From: Fodinicola acaciae
GTDB lineage: Bacteria; Actinomycetota; Actinomycetes; Mycobacteriales; HKI-0501
Length of the DNA: 64,000 bases
Assembly (NCBI RefSeq): GCF_010993745.1
Contig: NZ_WOTN01000003.1
Location: 1,116,001 to 1,180,000, forward strand
Direction: 5' to 3'
The notes beneath the pieces were generated by a model. The model searched no databases and was not told the origin of the DNA. It worked only from the letters and a program-made list of their open reading frames with translations. Position numbers and translations under genes: made by a program. The number at the start of each line of letters is the position of its first letter. Within the stretch, counting starts at the first letter, position 1. Below, piece by piece: positions 2,827-10,561 of this stretch.

Positions 2827-5064
2827 TCAGCTGGCCGGTACGGCCACCGCGAGTGGCGTCTGCTCGGAGCCCTGGCCGAGCGGGTTGTCGGCGAACAGCT
2901 TCTCGAAGAACGCGTCCGGCCGGTCGGCGGCGGAGCCGAGTACGTTACGGCCGATGTCGTTGGCGTCGATGATCACCACACCGGCCAGCTTGTCGGCGAT
3001 CGCCTCTTCCCCCGCCTCGCGCAGCGCGGCGCGTACGGCCGTGGTGAGCGCGGTTGCGGCCTGTTTCGGCTTGGCCGGCGCCAGCTTCGCGGACACGTTG
3101 GACGGATACGCCGAATACTCGGTCGGCCCGTCGATCGCGCGTACGGAGTGGCCGGCGACCTGGTAGAACAGGCCGCGCCGGCCGATCACCTTGCCGGCCG
3201 CGCCGGCCGCCGACGCGACCAGGATGCGCGGCAGGCCGGCCTCCTGGATCGCCAGCTGCATCGTCCACGGACTGCCCAGGCCGATGCCGTACGGTGTCTT
3301 CACCACGAACCTGGACAGCGTGCGGGCCCACCAGTTGGGCTGGATGTCCCAGATGAAGTACGACCGGCCCTGCGCGATCGCCACCACCTTCTCGCTGACC
3401 AGCAGATACCACGGCCGCTCGAACCGGCCGGTGTGCCGGCCGTCGGCGCGTACGGCCGCCACGAAGCCGGTCACATAGCCGGAGATCAGCTTCTGGTAGT
3501 CGTCGCCGCGCGCGAAGAGCTCGGTGCGCACCGGAAAGCGCAGCCACCGCTCACCGTCGATGGCGATCTCCAGCTCCTTGCCGCTGTTGGCCTCCAGCGG
3601 CCCCTTGACCGCCGGCGCCGGCTGCTCCTCCGGCTTGGGGTCGACGAAGGCGGCCATCCACAGCTCGACGTTGAGCAGCCGCCAGAAGATCGCGGCGTCG
3701 GCGTTGCGGCCCTTGATGAAATCCTCGAAGGCGACCAGGATCTCCTGCTGCGCGAACCACGGTCGCGTCGTGAACGACTCCGACAGGAACGTGCCGTAGA
3801 CCCGGTTTTTCAACCGCAGCAACCATTCGCGCACCGGTCCGGCCGGTCGTACGGCGCCGGCGGCGGCTCGTACCCGGGGCGTCAGCCTGGCCGCCAGCTG
3901 CTCGCCGTCCGGGATTTCCTGGCCGGCGAACGGAAGCCGGACGCGGACGCCGGTGTGCGCGCCGACCCGGTCGGCGACCCGCAGCGCCGCCGCGACGGCG
4001 TCCGGCCGGCCAGCCGGCTCACCGTCCACATTGGACAGGAGGGTGGCGATGTCCACCGTACGCTTGGCTTTCGGCTGCTCGACGGCGATGCCGAGCGCCT
4101 GCTCGGCACCGGCCGGATCGACCAGCACCTCGACACCGGCGGCGGCCTTGGCGACCGCCAGGGTCGCGTACGCGGCGAGATCCGGGACCGGCTCGCCGAG
4201 GATGCGCACCAGGTCGGCCAGGTCGGTGCCGAGCTGATCGCCGGAGGCCACGACGGAGGCAGGCGTGCGGCCGAGCGCGGTCGCGGTCGCCTGGCTGGTC
4301 GGCGCGGTCGAGGTGGGGCCGCCGGTCAGCACGAAGACCTCCGCGTCCGGCAGCCGGCTGGCCAGATAGGCCGCTGGCGCGCCAAGGCCGAGGTGCACGC
4401 CGACCTTGCGTCCGCGCAGGCCAGCCAGCGTGTCGTCGACGGTCGTCGGCGTGACCCCGGCCGTCTCGTACGCCTCGGTGGTCGCCTCCACGACGCCGTC
4501 GGCCGGCCGGAGCGTGGTGACATGGCCGGCCGGCACGCGCGAGACGCCGGCGAAGAACGTGCGCTCGCCGCTGTCGGTCGCGCCGGTGCGCAGATAGTCG
4601 CGGACCGCCTGGTCGTCGGCCGCCGCCGTCAGGCCCGGCGCGGCCAGCAGAGCGGTGGGCTCCGACGCGTACGCGTGGCTGCCGGCGGTGATGCCGGCGT
4701 GGTAGAGCGTTCCCCCGCCGATCCGGTCGACGGCCAGGTGCGTACGGCCGTCCCGCCGGTCGGTGATCGCCACCGCCCAGACGCCGGCCAGCCCGCCGAG
4801 CGCGGCCAGGCCGTCGGCACGGTAGGCGGCCAGCACGGCCTCCGCATCGGTCACGCCGTCGGCGCGCTCGGACAGCTCCCCGTCGAAGGCGACGCTGACC
4901 TCGTCGTCGGCGGCCCGCTGGCCGGCCGGCCGGTGCGCCTGCGCGGCGGCGATGTTGGCGGCGACCACCGCCGGGCCGGCGACATCGCCACGTACACCGG
5001 CGAGACCGTGCGTGGTGTCGGCCAGCTCACTGATGTCATGCGAGTCGCTGGTTGCGCCGCTCAT
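2827..5064 (-). CDS. Degenerate asparagine-synthetase-like domain fused to a CofE-like (F420-0:gamma-glutamyl ligase-like) domain
   Basis: 745 residues from ATG 5064 (GGAGA about 10 bases upstream; the frame is open further but looks non-coding). Residues about 10-190 follow class II glutamine amidotransferase architecture (LGGLAGVWAVAITDRRDG), but the start reads THGLAGVRGD without the catalytic N-terminal Cys. Residues about 190-430 resemble the asparagine-synthase ATP-pyrophosphatase domain, yet the expected SGGxDS loop is GVHLGLGAPAAYLASRL. Residues about 500-745 carry CofE-like blocks: YLLVSEKVVAIAQGRS, KTPYGIGLGSPWTMQL and GVVIIDANDIGRNVLG. CofE adds L-glutamate to coenzyme F420-0. The likely picture is a ligase with an inactive, possibly binding-only, AsnB-like half. 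The substrate is unknown and no F420 biosynthesis genes adjoin. Confidence 0.7.
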   Translation of the reverse strand: MSGATSDSHDISELADTTHGLAGVRGDVAGPAVVAANIAAAQAHRPAGQRAADDEVSVAFDGELSERADGVTDAEAVLAAYRADGLAALGGLAGVWAVAITDRRDGRTHLAVDRIGGGTLYHAGITAGSHAYASEPTALLAAPGLTAAADDQAVRDYLRTGATDSGERTFFAGVSRVPAGHVTTLRPADGVVEATTEAYETAGVTPTTVDDTLAGLRGRKVGVHLGLGAPAAYLASRLPDAEVFVLTGGPTSTAPTSQATATALGRTPASVVASGDQLGTDLADLVRILGEPVPDLAAYATLAVAKAAAGVEVLVDPAGAEQALGIAVEQPKAKRTVDIATLLSNVDGEPAGRPDAVAAALRVADRVGAHTGVRVRLPFAGQEIPDGEQLAARLTPRVRAAAGAVRPAGPVREWLLRLKNRVYGTFLSESFTTRPWFAQQEILVAFEDFIKGRNADAAIFWRLLNVELWMAAFVDPKPEEQPAPAVKGPLEANSGKELEIAIDGERWLRFPVRTELFARGDDYQKLISGYVTGFVAAVRADGRHTGRFERPWYLLVSEKVVAIAQGRSYFIWDIQPNWWARTLSRFVVKTPYGIGLGSPWTMQLAIQEAGLPRILVASAAGAAGKVIGRRGLFYQVAGHSVRAIDGPTEYSAYPSNVSAKLAPAKPKQAATALTTAVRAALREAGEEAIADKLAGVVIIDANDIGRNVLGSAADRPDAFFEKLFADNPLGQGSEQTPLAVAVPAS

Positions 5065-5282: not shown

Positions 5283-6107
5283 TCAGCGCGGAGGATAGGG
5301 ACCCGACGGCGGCTGCGGCGGCGCGTAGTGCTGCGGTGGTCCGGCCGGCGGCGGCACGTACGGCTGTGGCGGCGCGCCAGGCGGTGGACCGGCAGGTGGA
5401 CCAGCGGGCGGACCGGACTGCGGACCAGCCGGCGGGTACGGCGGCTGCGGCGGCATCCCGGCCGGCGGACCGGCATGTGGACCCGGCGGCGGACCGGCAT
5501 ACGGACCGGGCGGTGGTCCGGCGGCCGGACCAGGCTGCGGCCCAGCGGGCTGGCCGGCAGGCGGACCACCCGGCGCGCCGAACTGCCGCAGGTCCTGCTC
5601 GGCCTGCGGCGGCGGCGGGAACGACGCCTGTGCGCGGCCCTTGATCATCCCCTGCAGCGCCATGCCATAGAACTTCGTGCCGGTGAACATGTGCACCTGG
5701 CCGGAGCTCAGGTCCACCACCACCGGCCGGATCTCGCCACCCCACACGTTCTTCGGCTTGGCGGTCGCGGCGGCGACCGCGTCCGGCCGTACGACCGGCG
5801 AGACCAGGCCCACGAGCGTGATGACCGCCGTCCCCAGCCCGCGTACGCCGTTGGTCGCCTGGTGCGCGTGTTGCGCCGCGTGCTGGCTGAAGTCGCCGAC
5901 GATGAACGCGTTGACCTCCGGGAAGCTCGCCGCGACCAGGCAGAAGTGCACCTGCCCCATCACCGCGCCGGCACCGTCGTACATGTTGGCCACGAAGGCG
6001 TTCATCGGCCCCACCTGGGCCTGGTAACCCTGCGCGTTCACCCTGGCCACCCGCATGGCTACGGCCTGCAGGTATTCCTCACCGGTCAGCACCGAGCCAG
6101 TATGCAC
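5283..6107 (-). CDS. Fifth conservon-operon protein with a Pro/Gly-rich tail, function unknown
   Basis: 274 residues from GTG 6107, two bases after the TGA of the upstream GTPase, so translationally coupled and certainly in the conservon operon. Residues 1-165 form a soluble alpha/beta-looking domain (GEEYLQAVAMRVARVNAQG, YDGAGAVMGQVHFCLVAASF, VVVDLSSGQVHMFTGTKFYG). Residues about 175-274 are low-complexity repeats of Pro, Gly, Ala and Gln (PPGPYAGPPPGPHAGPPAG). There is no signal peptide or membrane segment. I do not recognise the N-terminal family. Its position suggests it is an effector or scaffold for the roadblock/GTPase complex. The tail reads as open frame in several phases because of its repeats, but only this phase gives a structured N-terminus. 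Confidence 0.75.
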   Translation of the reverse strand: MHTGSVLTGEEYLQAVAMRVARVNAQGYQAQVGPMNAFVANMYDGAGAVMGQVHFCLVAASFPEVNAFIVGDFSQHAAQHAHQATNGVRGLGTAVITLVGLVSPVVRPDAVAAATAKPKNVWGGEIRPVVVDLSSGQVHMFTGTKFYGMALQGMIKGRAQASFPPPPQAEQDLRQFGAPGGPPAGQPAGPQPGPAAGPPPGPYAGPPPGPHAGPPAGMPPQPPYPPAGPQSGPPAGPPAGPPPGAPPQPYVPPPAGPPQHYAPPQPPSGPYPPR

Positions 6108-6109
6108 GC

Positions 6110-6697
6110 TCAGGCCGGAGCGGTGTCCATCGTCCTGGTCATCGCGTGCTCGACCAGCCGGATCAGCGTCTCCTTGGCCGACTCCAGGCTGCGCGCGTCG
6201 CAGGAGACCACCGGCACGGCCGGCTCCACGGTCATCGCCTCGCGTACGTCGGCCAGCGTGTGCGACATCCGTCCGTCGAAGCGGTTGACCGCGACCACGT
6301 ACGGGACACCGTGCTCCTCGAAGAAGTCGACCGCGGAGAACGAGTCGGCCAGCCGCCTGGTGTCGACGAGTACGACCGCGCCGATCGCGCCGCGCACCAG
6401 GTCGTCCCACATGAACCAGAAGCGTTGCTGTCCCGGCGTGCCGAACAGGTAGAGGATCAGGTCGTCGGCGAGCGTACGGCGGCCGAAGTCCATCGCCACC
6501 GTGGTGGTCACCTTGTCCGGGGTCGCGGCCAGGTCGTCCACCCCGATGCTGGCGTCGGTGATCTGCGCCTCGGTGGTGAGCGGCGGGATCTCCGACACCG
6601 CCCCGACGAACGTGGTCTTGCCGGCGCCGAAGCCGCCGGCGACCACGATCTTCGCCGAGATCACCTGCTGGATGGCTCTAGATGCGGCGGAGTCCAC
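6110..6697 (-). CDS. Conservon small GTPase (CvnD-type, MglA/Ras-like)
   Basis: A 195-residue cytosolic GTP-binding protein. The P-loop GGFGAGKTT lies at residues 21-29, the switch II/G3-like FGTPGQQRFW at about 85-94, and the NRFD specificity motif (NKxD-like) at 138-141. This matches the last protein of actinobacterial conservons, where the GTPase works with the roadblock and DUF742 proteins downstream of an orphan sensor kinase to modulate development and secondary metabolism. It overlaps the DUF742 gene by 20 bases and ends two bases before the next gene. G3 reads TPGQ rather than the DxxG of Ras, as is usual in this group. Confidence 0.92.
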   Translation of the reverse strand: MDSAASRAIQQVISAKIVVAGGFGAGKTTFVGAVSEIPPLTTEAQITDASIGVDDLAATPDKVTTTVAMDFGRRTLADDLILYLFGTPGQQRFWFMWDDLVRGAIGAVVLVDTRRLADSFSAVDFFEEHGVPYVVAVNRFDGRMSHTLADVREAMTVEPAVPVVSCDARSLESAKETLIRLVEHAMTRTMDTAPA

Positions 6698-7328
6698 TCA
6701 GCACCCTTTCCATGAGCTGCATACGCGCGGTCCGGTCGGTCGGCGCCGCACTGCGGTGCACCGCGATCAGGCCAGCGTCGGCGAGGTCCCCGATCAACAC
6801 CTTGGCCACGCCGAGCGGCACGCCGATGCCGGCGGCCACCTCGGCCACCGACCGCGGCCGTACGCACAACCGCACGATCGAGCGGTGCTCCACGCGCGGC
6901 ACCGCTGCCTGGCCGGCCGGCGGCACGGTCGAGGACACCAACGTCTCGATCTCCAGGTCGACGGACGCCTTGGTGCGTCCGCTGGTCAGCGTGTACGGAC
7001 GTACGACGGTAGCGGCGGTGTCCACCGTGATCGACTCCGCCGGGCTGACCGGCTCCGGCGGTGGCGCCGGTTCGGCCGGTCTGACCTGCTCTTTCGTCCG
7101 CCCGCCCCGGCGCCTTTTCCGGCCGCCGAAGCTGACCGAGTTGACCACGTCGCCGAAGGTCGCCTCGGCGTGCGCCGGCACGTGACCGGCGTCCGGTCCG
7201 ATCCGGATGTGACCGCCGACCGGGCGCTGGTGCGTGGTGTCCAGCAGTGGGTCCAGGAGTGGGTCCAGGAGTGGGTCCGGCACTCTGGGCAGTTCGCCGG
7301 AGCCGCGCTCCGGCTCCTCGCGGCTCAC
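6678..7328 (-). CDS. DUF742 protein (CvnC-type)
   Basis: 216 residues. An N-terminal Pro/Arg-rich linker of about 100 residues is followed by the DUF742 domain. Its typical start is VVRPYTLTSGRTKAS and it ends RMQLMERVLSGLRRI, with an inner winged-helix-like segment (RPRSVAEVAAGIGVPLGVAKVLI). The linker holds a tandem PDPLLDPLLDPLLD repeat matching a short DNA direct repeat near 7240-7280. In conservons this protein bridges the sensor kinase/roadblock pair and the GTPase. It begins three bases after the roadblock stop and overlaps the GTPase start, consistent with one tightly coupled operon. Confidence 0.9.
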   Translation of the reverse strand: MSREEPERGSGELPRVPDPLLDPLLDPLLDTTHQRPVGGHIRIGPDAGHVPAHAEATFGDVVNSVSFGGRKRRRGGRTKEQVRPAEPAPPPEPVSPAESITVDTAATVVRPYTLTSGRTKASVDLEIETLVSSTVPPAGQAAVPRVEHRSIVRLCVRPRSVAEVAAGIGVPLGVAKVLIGDLADAGLIAVHRSAAPTDRTARMQLMERVLSGLRRI

Positions 7329-7331
7329 GGC

Positions 7332-7772
7332 CTACGCCGAACGGTAGGCGGTGCCCTGCAGCTGCGCGCGCAGCTGCGGCGTGAGGATCTGGCCGACCCG
7401 CTCGACCAGCAGCGCCATCTCGTACGCGACCTGACCCATGTCGCAGTTCGGGGCGGCGAGCACGGCCAGGCAGGAGCCCTCGCCGATGGCCATCAGCATC
7501 AGCAGGCCGTGGTCCATCTGGACGACCGTCTCGCGTACCCGGCCGGCCTCGAAGCACCGCGCCGCGCCCTGCGCCAGGCTGAGCAGGCCGGAGGTGGCGG
7601 CGGCCAGCTGGTCGGCGCGGTCGGCCGGCAGCCGGGAGGACGAGGTGAGCAGCAGGCCGTCGCTGGACACGACGATGGCGTGCGCGACACCAGGCACGCG
7701 CTCGGTGAAGGTGGTCACCAGCCAGCCGAACTGGGCCACGGGAGACTCGCCGCCGGTCATCCGCTCTCCCAT
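7332..7772 (-). CDS. Roadblock/LC7 domain protein (CvnB-type)
   Basis: 146 residues, essentially one roadblock/LC7 domain. Typical blocks are FTERVPGVAHAIVVSSDGLL, ADQLAAATSGLLSLAQGA, and a final strand set (GLLMLMAIGEGSCLAVLAAP). Roadblock proteins act as dimeric GTPase regulators, like MglB for MglA, so the CvnD-type GTPase two genes downstream is the expected partner. The start at 7772 overlaps the kinase stop by 16 bases. An internal Met (MTGG, four codons in) is an alternative start. Confidence 0.92.
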   Translation of the reverse strand: MGERMTGGESPVAQFGWLVTTFTERVPGVAHAIVVSSDGLLLTSSSRLPADRADQLAAATSGLLSLAQGAARCFEAGRVRETVVQMDHGLLMLMAIGEGSCLAVLAAPNCDMGQVAYEMALLVERVGQILTPQLRAQLQGTAYRSA

Positions 7773-10561
7773 CCCGAACCGTCCGCCGCCGACCTGCCGG
7801 CCCTGACACCCCGCTGATAGCTGCCGAACCGGTCGCGCAGGCTTTCCGCGCTCTCTCGTGCCGTCGCGGTGAGCGGCCCGACCGGTCCCATCGGTGCCAC
7901 CGTAGCCGGTGTGACCGGCGCGGTCACGGGTGTGGGGTCGGCGGATTCGGTGGATGGAACGCTGCCGGGGACGAGCCTGGCGCGCGGCGTACGTTTGGGC
8001 AGTCCGGCGGCCGTACGCTCGGTCGGCTCCACGGACGCGCGGCTGGCCGCCTCGAAGCCGGCGTCGGCGGCGAACCGCCAGGCCTGCGGCTGCGGCTGCG
8101 CCGGCGGCCGGTCGCCGAACCAGGCCGAGGAGACCTCCGGGATCTGGCCCTGCATCTGGTTGAAGATCGGCGTGCCGGTCGGTGGCACCGACTCGGCGGC
8201 CGGCGGCTCCGGCGTCGCCACCGGCTCCGGCTCCGGCTCCGGCTCCGGCGTGCGGCCACGCCGCCGCGGCAACGCCGGCAGGTCACCACCTTCGTCGACC
8301 TCGACCACCCCCGCCGAGGGTGACGTTTTGACCGTCTCCGGCGGCGTGTCGACCGGCGAAACGTCGCCCTCGCGACGCTCGAACGTCACGGTGCCCGGCA
8401 CGCCGAGCGCGACCACCGCCACCGGCGGTCCGGCCGGCTGAGGCTCGGGCTCCGGCACGTTGGCCTCGGCCGGCGCCGCCGACCCCAGCGGCGCGTCGGC
8501 CTCCACCGGCGGCGGCACCGTACGCGGCGGCTTGGCCAGCCGGCGCGGCCGCCGCTTCGGCAGCGACGCCATCAGGTCGTTGCGGCCGGTGCCGTTCAGC
8601 AGCTTCTGCCGCGGGATCGGACCGCGGTCGGGCGCCGGCTCCTCCGGTGCCTCCGGGGTCAGCAACGCCGCCGGCAACGTGACCGTCGCGCGTACGCCAC
8701 CGATCTCCGGACCGCTGTTGAGCAGCACGCGTACGCCATGGCGGCGGGACAGCCGGCCGACCACGAACAGTCCCATCCGCCGCGACGTACTCGGATCGAC
8801 CTCGCGCGCCGACGACAGCTGTGCGTTCATCGCCATCAGCTGCGCGTCCGGGATGCCGATGCCCTGGTCCAGGATGTCGATCGCCACGCTCTCGTCGCGC
8901 GCCGTCGAGCACGTCACGGTGACGCGCGTACCAGGCGGGGAAAAGGCCGTCGCGTTGTCCAGCAGCTCCGCCAGCAGCCGTACGACATCACCGACCGCAT
9001 AGCCGGCGACCGCCACCGCGGCCGGCTGGTCGAGCACTACGCGCTGGTAGTGCTCGATCTCCGACACCGCCGCGCGCAGCACGTCACCGAGACCGACCGG
9101 CTCGGCGAACTGCCTGGCCACGTCGGTGCCGGAGAGCACCATCAGGTTTTCGTTATTACGCCGCATCCGGGTCGCCAGATGGTCCAGCTGGAACAGGATG
9201 GACAGCTGCTCGGAGTCGGTCTCGTCGCGCTCCAGCTGCTCGATCAGGCCGAGCTGGCGCTGCACCAGCGTCTCGCTGCGGCGCGACAGGTTGACGAAGA
9301 TCTCCGCGTAGTTGCGCCGCAACCGGGTCTGCTCGACGGCGAGCCGCAGCGCCTGTCCGTGCATCGCGTCGAAAGCGGCGCCGAGCTGGCCGATCTCGTC
9401 CGGTCCCGGCTTGGACGACACGGCCGTGTCCACCTGCCGGCCGGCGCGCAGCTCGGCGACGGCGGCAGGCAGCCGGCGCGCGGCGACGTCCTCGGCCCGC
9501 CGGCGCAGCCGGCCCAGCGACCGTACGAGCTGGCGGGCGATCGCGATCATCACGCCGGCCGCGGTGATCAGCGCGACGAACAGCACCACCGAGGCCAGTC
9601 CGGCGAGGTTGCTGGCGTCCTCGCGGAGCTGCGCGACCGTCGCCTGCAGCTGCTGCGTGAGGCTCCTGCTCACCGACCGCAGCGCGGCCTCCGCCGGCGC
9701 CGAGGCGGCCGACCAGTCGGCGGCGGTGACCGTGCCGCCACCGAGCACGACGTTTTTCAACTGCGTACGACTGGACGCCGCCGGAATGCCGACCGCCTTC
9801 TTGTACGCCTCCGCGGCGGCCGGGCTCGCGACCGCCAGGAAGTCGGTGGCGCGCGCCGCCATCCGCGCGTCCGACGCGCGCAGCAGGTCACGCTGCTGGG
9901 TGGTCACCGAGCCGTTGGTGCCCGCCATGGCGGCCGCCTGGAGTGCGACCTCCTCCTGCACCGACTGCAGGTCGAACAACGCGAGCGCGGCCGAGGCCAG
10001 TTTCGGGTCGGCCAGGCCGGACGCGAGCTCCTGGTCGACGAGCAGCAAGGAGCCGATGACCGGCGTGTACGTCTCGATCGGGGTCGCCGAGCCGCCGCGC
10101 ATCCCCGGCAGCTTCGCGAGCGCGTCGGTGACGGTCGTGGTCGCCGGCAACGCGCCGGCCTGCGACAACGCGGCGGTGAAAGCGGCCACCGCGAGGTCGG
10201 TGGCGTGATAGCGCGCGGACAGCCCGCTGCCGGTGGCCGCGGCCGTACGCTCCTGCTGCAGCGCGGTCAGCAGGTCGCCGAGCGACGCGGTCACCGCGAC
10301 CAGCTTCTGCACGCGCGCGTACTCGCTGGTCTGCAGCACCGCGCCACGGATCTGCCAACCGCCGAGGGCGAACAGGAACAGCAGCGGGACGCAGATGACG
10401 GCGACCAGCTTGGTGGTCACCTTCCAGTCGCGCCACTGGAACAGGCCAGCCCGAGGCGCCGGCGTCACCACCGGCAGGATGATCTCGGCGGTGCCCGGCT
10501 CGGTGCGCCGCGGCGCCGGCAGGTCAGGTCGAGGTCCGGCGGCCGGCCGCATCAACACCAC
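7757..10561 (-). CDS. Conservon sensor histidine kinase (CvnA-type, NIT/HAMP)
   Basis: 934 residues. The first membrane helix is near 49-68 (KLVAVICVPLLFLFALGGWQ). A large helical extracytoplasmic region of the nitrate/nitrite-sensor (NIT) type spans about 70-315, with a second helix near 316-340. A HAMP segment, a coiled phosphoacceptor-like region (NLSRRSETLVQRQLGLIEQL) and an HATPase domain follow, with N-box LLAELLDNATAFSPPGTRV, DQGIGIP and MGLFVVGRLSRRHG. The last 300 residues are Pro/Glu-rich and may dock the roadblock and DUF742 proteins. No response regulator is nearby, as usual for conservons. The start is one of GTG 10561, GTG 10558 or ATG 10552; none has a strong RBS. Confidence 0.9.
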   Translation of the reverse strand: MVLMRPAAGPRPDLPAPRRTEPGTAEIILPVVTPAPRAGLFQWRDWKVTTKLVAVICVPLLFLFALGGWQIRGAVLQTSEYARVQKLVAVTASLGDLLTALQQERTAAATGSGLSARYHATDLAVAAFTAALSQAGALPATTTVTDALAKLPGMRGGSATPIETYTPVIGSLLLVDQELASGLADPKLASAALALFDLQSVQEEVALQAAAMAGTNGSVTTQQRDLLRASDARMAARATDFLAVASPAAAEAYKKAVGIPAASSRTQLKNVVLGGGTVTAADWSAASAPAEAALRSVSRSLTQQLQATVAQLREDASNLAGLASVVLFVALITAAGVMIAIARQLVRSLGRLRRRAEDVAARRLPAAVAELRAGRQVDTAVSSKPGPDEIGQLGAAFDAMHGQALRLAVEQTRLRRNYAEIFVNLSRRSETLVQRQLGLIEQLERDETDSEQLSILFQLDHLATRMRRNNENLMVLSGTDVARQFAEPVGLGDVLRAAVSEIEHYQRVVLDQPAAVAVAGYAVGDVVRLLAELLDNATAFSPPGTRVTVTCSTARDESVAIDILDQGIGIPDAQLMAMNAQLSSAREVDPSTSRRMGLFVVGRLSRRHGVRVLLNSGPEIGGVRATVTLPAALLTPEAPEEPAPDRGPIPRQKLLNGTGRNDLMASLPKRRPRRLAKPPRTVPPPVEADAPLGSAAPAEANVPEPEPQPAGPPVAVVALGVPGTVTFERREGDVSPVDTPPETVKTSPSAGVVEVDEGGDLPALPRRRGRTPEPEPEPEPVATPEPPAAESVPPTGTPIFNQMQGQIPEVSSAWFGDRPPAQPQPQAWRFAADAGFEAASRASVEPTERTAAGLPKRTPRARLVPGSVPSTESADPTPVTAPVTPATVAPMGPVGPLTATARESAESLRDRFGSYQRGVRAGRSAADGSGWESG

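Follow-up and report, generated by a model that had tools for sequence, protein, structure and literature searches.

The window, which is the whole 64,000-nucleotide stretch of DNA analysed here (G000:C3:1116001-1180000, from the 8.86 Mb genome of Fodinicola acaciae), contains a gene for a two-part protein with a degenerate AsnB half and a CofE-like ligase half (Table 1). The gene lies on the minus strand, with its ATG at 5064, a coding sequence that runs from 5064 to 2830 and a stop at 2827-2829, and its product has 745 residues. A sequence-only reading of the same DNA had placed the gene correctly at 2827-5064 and had given no strand. The gene is present in a single copy in its own genome, and each of the three family genomes that were searched has one relative of it. 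The closest named relative of the genome is Fodinicola feengrottensis, at 71% identity. No RNA family and no terminator-like or promoter-like site was found at the locus, and in a plasmid search for named relatives none of the records reached 80% coverage of the query, the best matches being to the AsnB part only.

Directly upstream of the gene is a conservon-like operon (6110-10552, minus strand) consisting of genes for a histidine kinase, a roadblock protein, a DUF742-like protein and a PF03029 GTPase, all of which, the GTPase excepted, were recognised by eye. At least the DUF742-like and GTPase genes are in the same order beside the corresponding gene in F. feengrottensis (L001). Between the operon and the gene, at 5283-6092 on the minus strand, is a protein that has no Pfam match and whose C-terminal tail is rich in proline and glycine; F. 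feengrottensis has one too. In the draft contig of F. feengrottensis, the N-terminal end of its copy (L001, about 3960-4110) is out of frame with the rest and reads MSGDPTGD...ASGIAGA in another frame, which is either a real frameshift or a sequencing error.

Table 1. Features of the gene for the AsnB/CofE-like fusion protein (positions in the window)
Feature	Residues	Position	Strand	Basis
Whole gene, degenerate AsnB half and CofE-like ligase half, 745 codons and stop		2827..5064	(-)	ORF, translation, codon-score gene call
Glutaminase domain (GATase_7, Ntn-hydrolase)	19-205	4450..5010	(-)	Pfam GATase_7, AF2 model vs 1ct9, family alignment
Asn-synthetase domain (PP-loop ATPase-like)	206-410	3835..4449	(-)	Pfam, alignment, AF2 model
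LGLGAPA in place of SGGxDS	225-231	4372-4392	(-)	Alignment
C-terminal helical segment of AsnB fold, hinge to ligase	411-475	3640..3834	(-)	Codon comparison, alignment
CofE-like ligase domain	487-745	2830..3606	(-)	AF2 model, Foldseek and VIA to 2phn/7uld/2g9i, hhalign
Asp645 codon, aligned with Asp109 of Af-CofE	645	3130..3132	(-)	hhalign, invariant in 16 homologues
Asp700 codon in DANDIG, aligned with Asp150 of Af-CofE	700	2965..2967	(-)	hhalign, invariant in 16 homologues
DNPLGQGSEQTP motif, 26-27 residues after Asp700 (53 in Af-CofE)		2854..2889	(-)	Motif spacing

The AsnB fold extends over residues 19-475 and the CofE fold over residues 487-745. Pfam recognises GATase_7 in the N-terminal half (2e-9), while its match to Asn_synthase (5e-3) is below the gathering score, and NCBIfam gives only sub-threshold asparagine-synthase-type models. 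In the predicted structure of the whole protein (pLDDT 82.7), residues 19-477 match TsnB9, E. coli AsnB and beta-lactam synthetase in a PDB fold search, with a Z of 25.1 over 424 residues to TsnB9 (7ylz) and of 22-25 to 7ylz, 1ct9 and 1mc1. Although the fold of this half is common to AsnB-type synthetases and amidotransferases (TIGR01536; 1CT9, TsnB9 7YLZ, beta-lactam synthetase) over 360-424 residues, the protein differs from these enzymes in the loss of Cys1, NGE and SGGxDS and in the ligase domain fused at its C-terminal end. His19, in a THGLAG stretch (H19-G23), sits at the place of the nucleophile Cys1, where residue 19 of the model pairs with residue 1 of 1ct9. The NGE motif has become DGE and the SGGxDS loop has become GLGAPA. 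Both the missing catalytic Cys and the replaced synthetase loop had been noted in the sequence-only reading and are indeed there. The AsnB half is also shortened, and the whole protein has 745 residues versus 870-890 in the intact relatives. Another start codon that would restore an N-terminal Cys is rejected, because the long open reading frame, which runs to 5133, contributes nothing but further upstream residues, with no MCG start among them, and because family relatives carry a Ser at this place (G395, and the MSGDPT frame of F. feengrottensis). Another AsnB paralogue of the genome (L004:358-2214, contig C1) starts with MSGIAGW, has Ser in place of the catalytic Cys and keeps RGPD; it may be a second AsnB pseudoenzyme here.

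The CofE-like half matches F420_ligase (PF01996) at 2.4e-4, with 21.1 bits versus a gathering score of 25. TIGR01916 gives no match to the protein at E values up to 10, and the best relative scanned reaches 34.9 bits versus a cut-off of 180.65. An earlier sequence profile search of the PDB reached CofE at an E value of 7e-4 only, and the fold search later supported this match. The AlphaFold2 model of residues 480-745 (pLDDT 87) matches Archaeoglobus CofE (2phn, 7uld, 2g9i) with a Foldseek E value of 1e-7 and a probability of 1.0, and VIA gives a Z of 14.3 over 186 residues at 19% identity, far above the unrelated rows. The CofE fold that had been proposed from the letters is thus found by structure prediction, and the two blocks quoted in its favour, KTPYGIGLGSPWTM at residues 589-602 and VVIIDANDIGRN around residues 697-707, are both present. 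Chance similarity of the two halves is ruled out by the fold searches (Foldseek E 1e-7 for CofE, Z 25.1 for AsnB).

In an hhalign alignment to canonical CofE (probability 96.3%), Asp645 and Asp700 correspond to Asp109 and Asp150 of Af-CofE, which we take to be its metal-binding residues, and both are invariant among 16 homologues. The gDDl, qGR and N..P blocks of CofE and of the N-terminal domain of FbiB (F420-0:L-glutamate ligase; PF01996, TIGR01916; 2PHN, 7ULD) align with the protein as well, and the active-site skeleton is conserved. The protein differs from CofE and FbiB, with which it shares about 19-22% identity, in an extra helical stretch (KTPYGIGLG...GRRG) and in the lack of the canonical Thr151 and of the GRPWR stretch. 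Nucleotide use could therefore differ from that of CofE. CofE uses GTP and two metals to phosphorylate a carboxylate, which is then attacked by the amine of an amino acid, and a long domain-swapped hairpin of the enzyme contacts F420 (PMC10861534). The spacing from Asp150 to the ANL/NPL block is 53 residues in canonical CofE, versus 27 in the protein and 25-27 in all homologues in which both motifs were found. Judged by its position, the stretch of about 26 residues that is absent would be the F420-contacting hairpin.

The AsnB and CofE-like pair occurs as neighbouring genes in two taxonomic families (f68 and f37) and as fusions in seven (f1, f21, f37, f47, f58, f111 and f117), with full-length fusions in G305, G230, G190, G443, G432 and G689. 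Fusions are found in 33 of the 119 genomes sampled in f37, where 37 genomes have a CofE-like match and four of these are unfused. In f47, a CofE-like match is present in 35 of 47 genomes, and nearly all of the 23 loci that were fetched are fused. Five f68 loci, G614 among them, and four genomes of f37 (L183, L184, L185 and L187) have an unfused CofE-like gene with asnB directly upstream on the same strand. The AsnB halves of the six intact pairs group in a single clade (100/100) that is separate from the 14 other AsnBs of a small comparison set, whose members were picked by similarity. The tree of the CofE-like proteins unites the Fodinicola family with G305 and G230 in a clade of the same support (100/100). 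Intact relatives score above the TIGR01536 cut-off. The fusion is an architecture of long standing in actinobacteria, with most of its AsnB halves intact, and the gene in the window is one of several copies that have worn out independently. No account of this fusion was found in the open-access literature searched; it is an undescribed architecture family of known enzyme kinds, not a new kind of chemistry.

When 69 fused proteins were scored for Cys1, NGE and SGGxDS, the AsnB half was intact in 49 and damaged in 20. The ATP loop is altered in 16 of the damaged proteins, and in the other four (L167, L169, L170 and L178) only the glutaminase motifs are altered. Placed on the tree, the intact and damaged labels need about eight changes, at least five of which are forced by well-supported branches. 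The five CofE-like motifs that were tested are preserved in every one of the 20 damaged proteins. Four f37 genomes carry two fused copies with opposite damage (L174/L181, L175/L182, L169/L179 and L170/L186). In these genomes, one copy combines sound ligase motifs with damage to the AsnB half, while the other has an intact AsnB half and a ligase half that is changed (QGR to QHR) or frameshifted. This looks like a division of labour, seen in two genera and with sequencing error as a possible cause.

The protein is best regarded, with moderate confidence, as an amide ligase that depends on GTP and metal and works through an acyl phosphate; its partner amidotransferase has lost catalysis on repeated occasions and, in this gene, is left as a shell. 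By homology to CofE, the ligase half would bind GTP and two divalent metal ions, would phosphorylate the carboxylate of an acceptor other than F420-0 and, like Af-CofE, would join an amino acid to the activated acceptor through its amine. The family as a whole probably joins an amino acid to an acid other than F420. In relatives with an intact AsnB half, this half may use ammonia from glutamine to convert a carboxylate into an amide, either elsewhere on that molecule or on the residue that has been added. In F. acaciae, ligation alone would remain, and the AsnB half would be a folded shell that is kept mainly for its junction with the ligase. Tentatively, the intact proteins can be pictured as widespread two-step actinobacterial enzymes that modify carboxyl groups: a GTP ligase of the CofE type attaches an amino acid to an acid other than F420, probably in an envelope precursor, and the fused AsnB amidates it. 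If this is true, lineages that have each dropped the AsnB step would make chemically different products from the same scaffold.

A different role of the AsnB half, in which it once made the amino acid for ligation, asparagine or another amide, and became dispensable since another AsnB supplies the compound, would explain why AsnB catalysis has been lost many times while the ligase stays. The genome does have another AsnB with an intact Cys start (L003). Such a role is nevertheless unlikely, since the paired AsnB halves form a clade of their own, and their separation from the other sampled AsnBs points to a special substrate.

The rates of evolution of the two halves bear on what the AsnB half does in the ligase that we favour. 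Since omega was estimated by a simple method on GC-rich codons, only the contrast in the values is meaningful. The AsnB half has an omega of 0.11-0.24 in seven intact pairs versus 0.14-1.10 in degenerate pairs. The CofE-like half, with an omega of 0.04-0.30 in all pairs compared, is always under purifying selection. That the AsnB-fold half is a true substrate-binding or regulatory subunit under selection, as in known pseudoenzymes, is doubtful. The fold is kept in the model, the AsnB half has an omega of 0.35 in the comparison of the two Fodinicola species and of 0.26 in L205/L206, and residues 411-475, the slowest part in the Fodinicola comparison, are 95% identical with an omega of 0.08, all of which would fit such a subunit. 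However, omega reaches 0.63-1.10 between genera (G000/G395), in G230/L189 and in L176/L178, values that suit a shell under relaxed selection better than a conserved site for binding. Residues 411-475 evolve faster in G230/L189. The sequence-only reading had proposed an AsnB-like half that serves as a scaffold or in substrate binding. A ligase with an AsnB-like scaffold largely agrees with the present results, while a dedicated role in substrate binding is not clear: the AsnB half outpaces the ligase half in the degenerate pairs tested (0.14-1.10 versus 0.04-0.30) and is slow only at about residues 411-475 in Fodinicola. The scaffold looks like an eroding relic. AsnB could also have been lost together with its pathway, although the ligase half gives no impression of relaxed selection.

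The genome carries adjacent fbiA and fbiB genes on a different contig (C2:882343-884017). Six complete or nearly complete genomes (G614, G328, G265, G382, G747 and G476) have a CofE-like protein and no CofD over the cut-off; in the first four, nothing passes the cut-off for canonical CofE either, and TIGR01916 gives no match whatever in G747 and G476. G230 also has no CofD over the cut-off, yet it is ambiguous for F420 because a separate CofE-type match lies just under the cut-off. Since fbiA and fbiB are elsewhere in the genome, the hairpin stretch is shorter and relatives occur in genomes without F420 genes, the CofE-like half is not the F420 enzyme of its own genome, in agreement with its earlier description as a CofE-like protein outside F420 synthesis. 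A second F420-0:glutamate ligase, which would tune the tail length or act on an F420 variant, would fit the shared fold and the F420 genes of the genome, but is highly improbable given the scores below the TIGR01916 and PF01996 cut-offs, the relatives in four genomes without CofD and canonical CofE, and the absence of about 26 residues where the F420-contacting hairpin lies. A bifunctional gene decaying in the genus, with catalysis gone from both halves, could account for the damaged and shortened AsnB half, but is just as improbable, since the reading frames are open in three relatives from two genera and the ligase half is 76-82% identical, with an omega of 0.24-0.30 and invariant site residues.

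In the literature searched, no CofE-like ligase outside F420 synthesis had a proven substrate. The names 'coenzyme F420-0:L-glutamate ligase' and 'asparagine synthase' may both mislead for these proteins, and the intact and repeatedly worn-out versions in close relatives are ready matched pairs for finding the substrate. That the acceptor is a cell envelope precursor is speculative, a weak guess for which the hints come only from more distant stand-alone relatives and from QimC. QimC belongs to the qim operon of Streptococcus pyogenes, an operon for wall modification, and is CofE-like by HHpred to 2PHN (PMC13059722). Both QimC and the protein are CofE-like, but the qim operon lists no AsnB partner, and the function of QimC is putative. 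LtsA/AsnB enzymes, which are AsnB family members that act on an envelope precursor, amidate meso-DAP in peptidoglycan (PMC8554201); their likeness to the protein would lie in family membership and in the meso-DAP wall of the host. The peptidoglycan of F. acaciae contains meso-DAP and glycine (PMC7232338), and the glycine beside meso-DAP is compatible with an envelope acceptor and proves nothing.

The neighbours of the AsnB and CofE-like pair vary between families and give no consistent pathway. In f37, the neighbourhood contains guaA, LPG_synthase_TM, PIG-L and GT4 genes. LPG_synthase_TM also turns up in f37 genomes that lack the pair and, in other genomes, at a distance from it; because it is not specific to the pair, the f37 neighbourhood was not used as evidence. 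The rml genes near some f47 copies were too few to serve as a clue. Distant stand-alone CofE-like genes have MurJ-like flippase neighbours in families f23, f72, f80 and f83, and a MurJ-type flippase lies beside such a gene in L045, L046, L048, L049, L093-L095, L098 and L102. Other distant stand-alone relatives have a DegT neighbour (f83) or an ATP-grasp_ST gene and a split alanine racemase (f40). In L037:10483-13331 and similar f40 loci, the alanine racemase is made up of two neighbouring open reading frames, one with the C-domain only and the other with the N-domain and a weak C-domain, and adjoins the sugar-transfer ATP-grasp gene and the stand-alone CofE-like gene.
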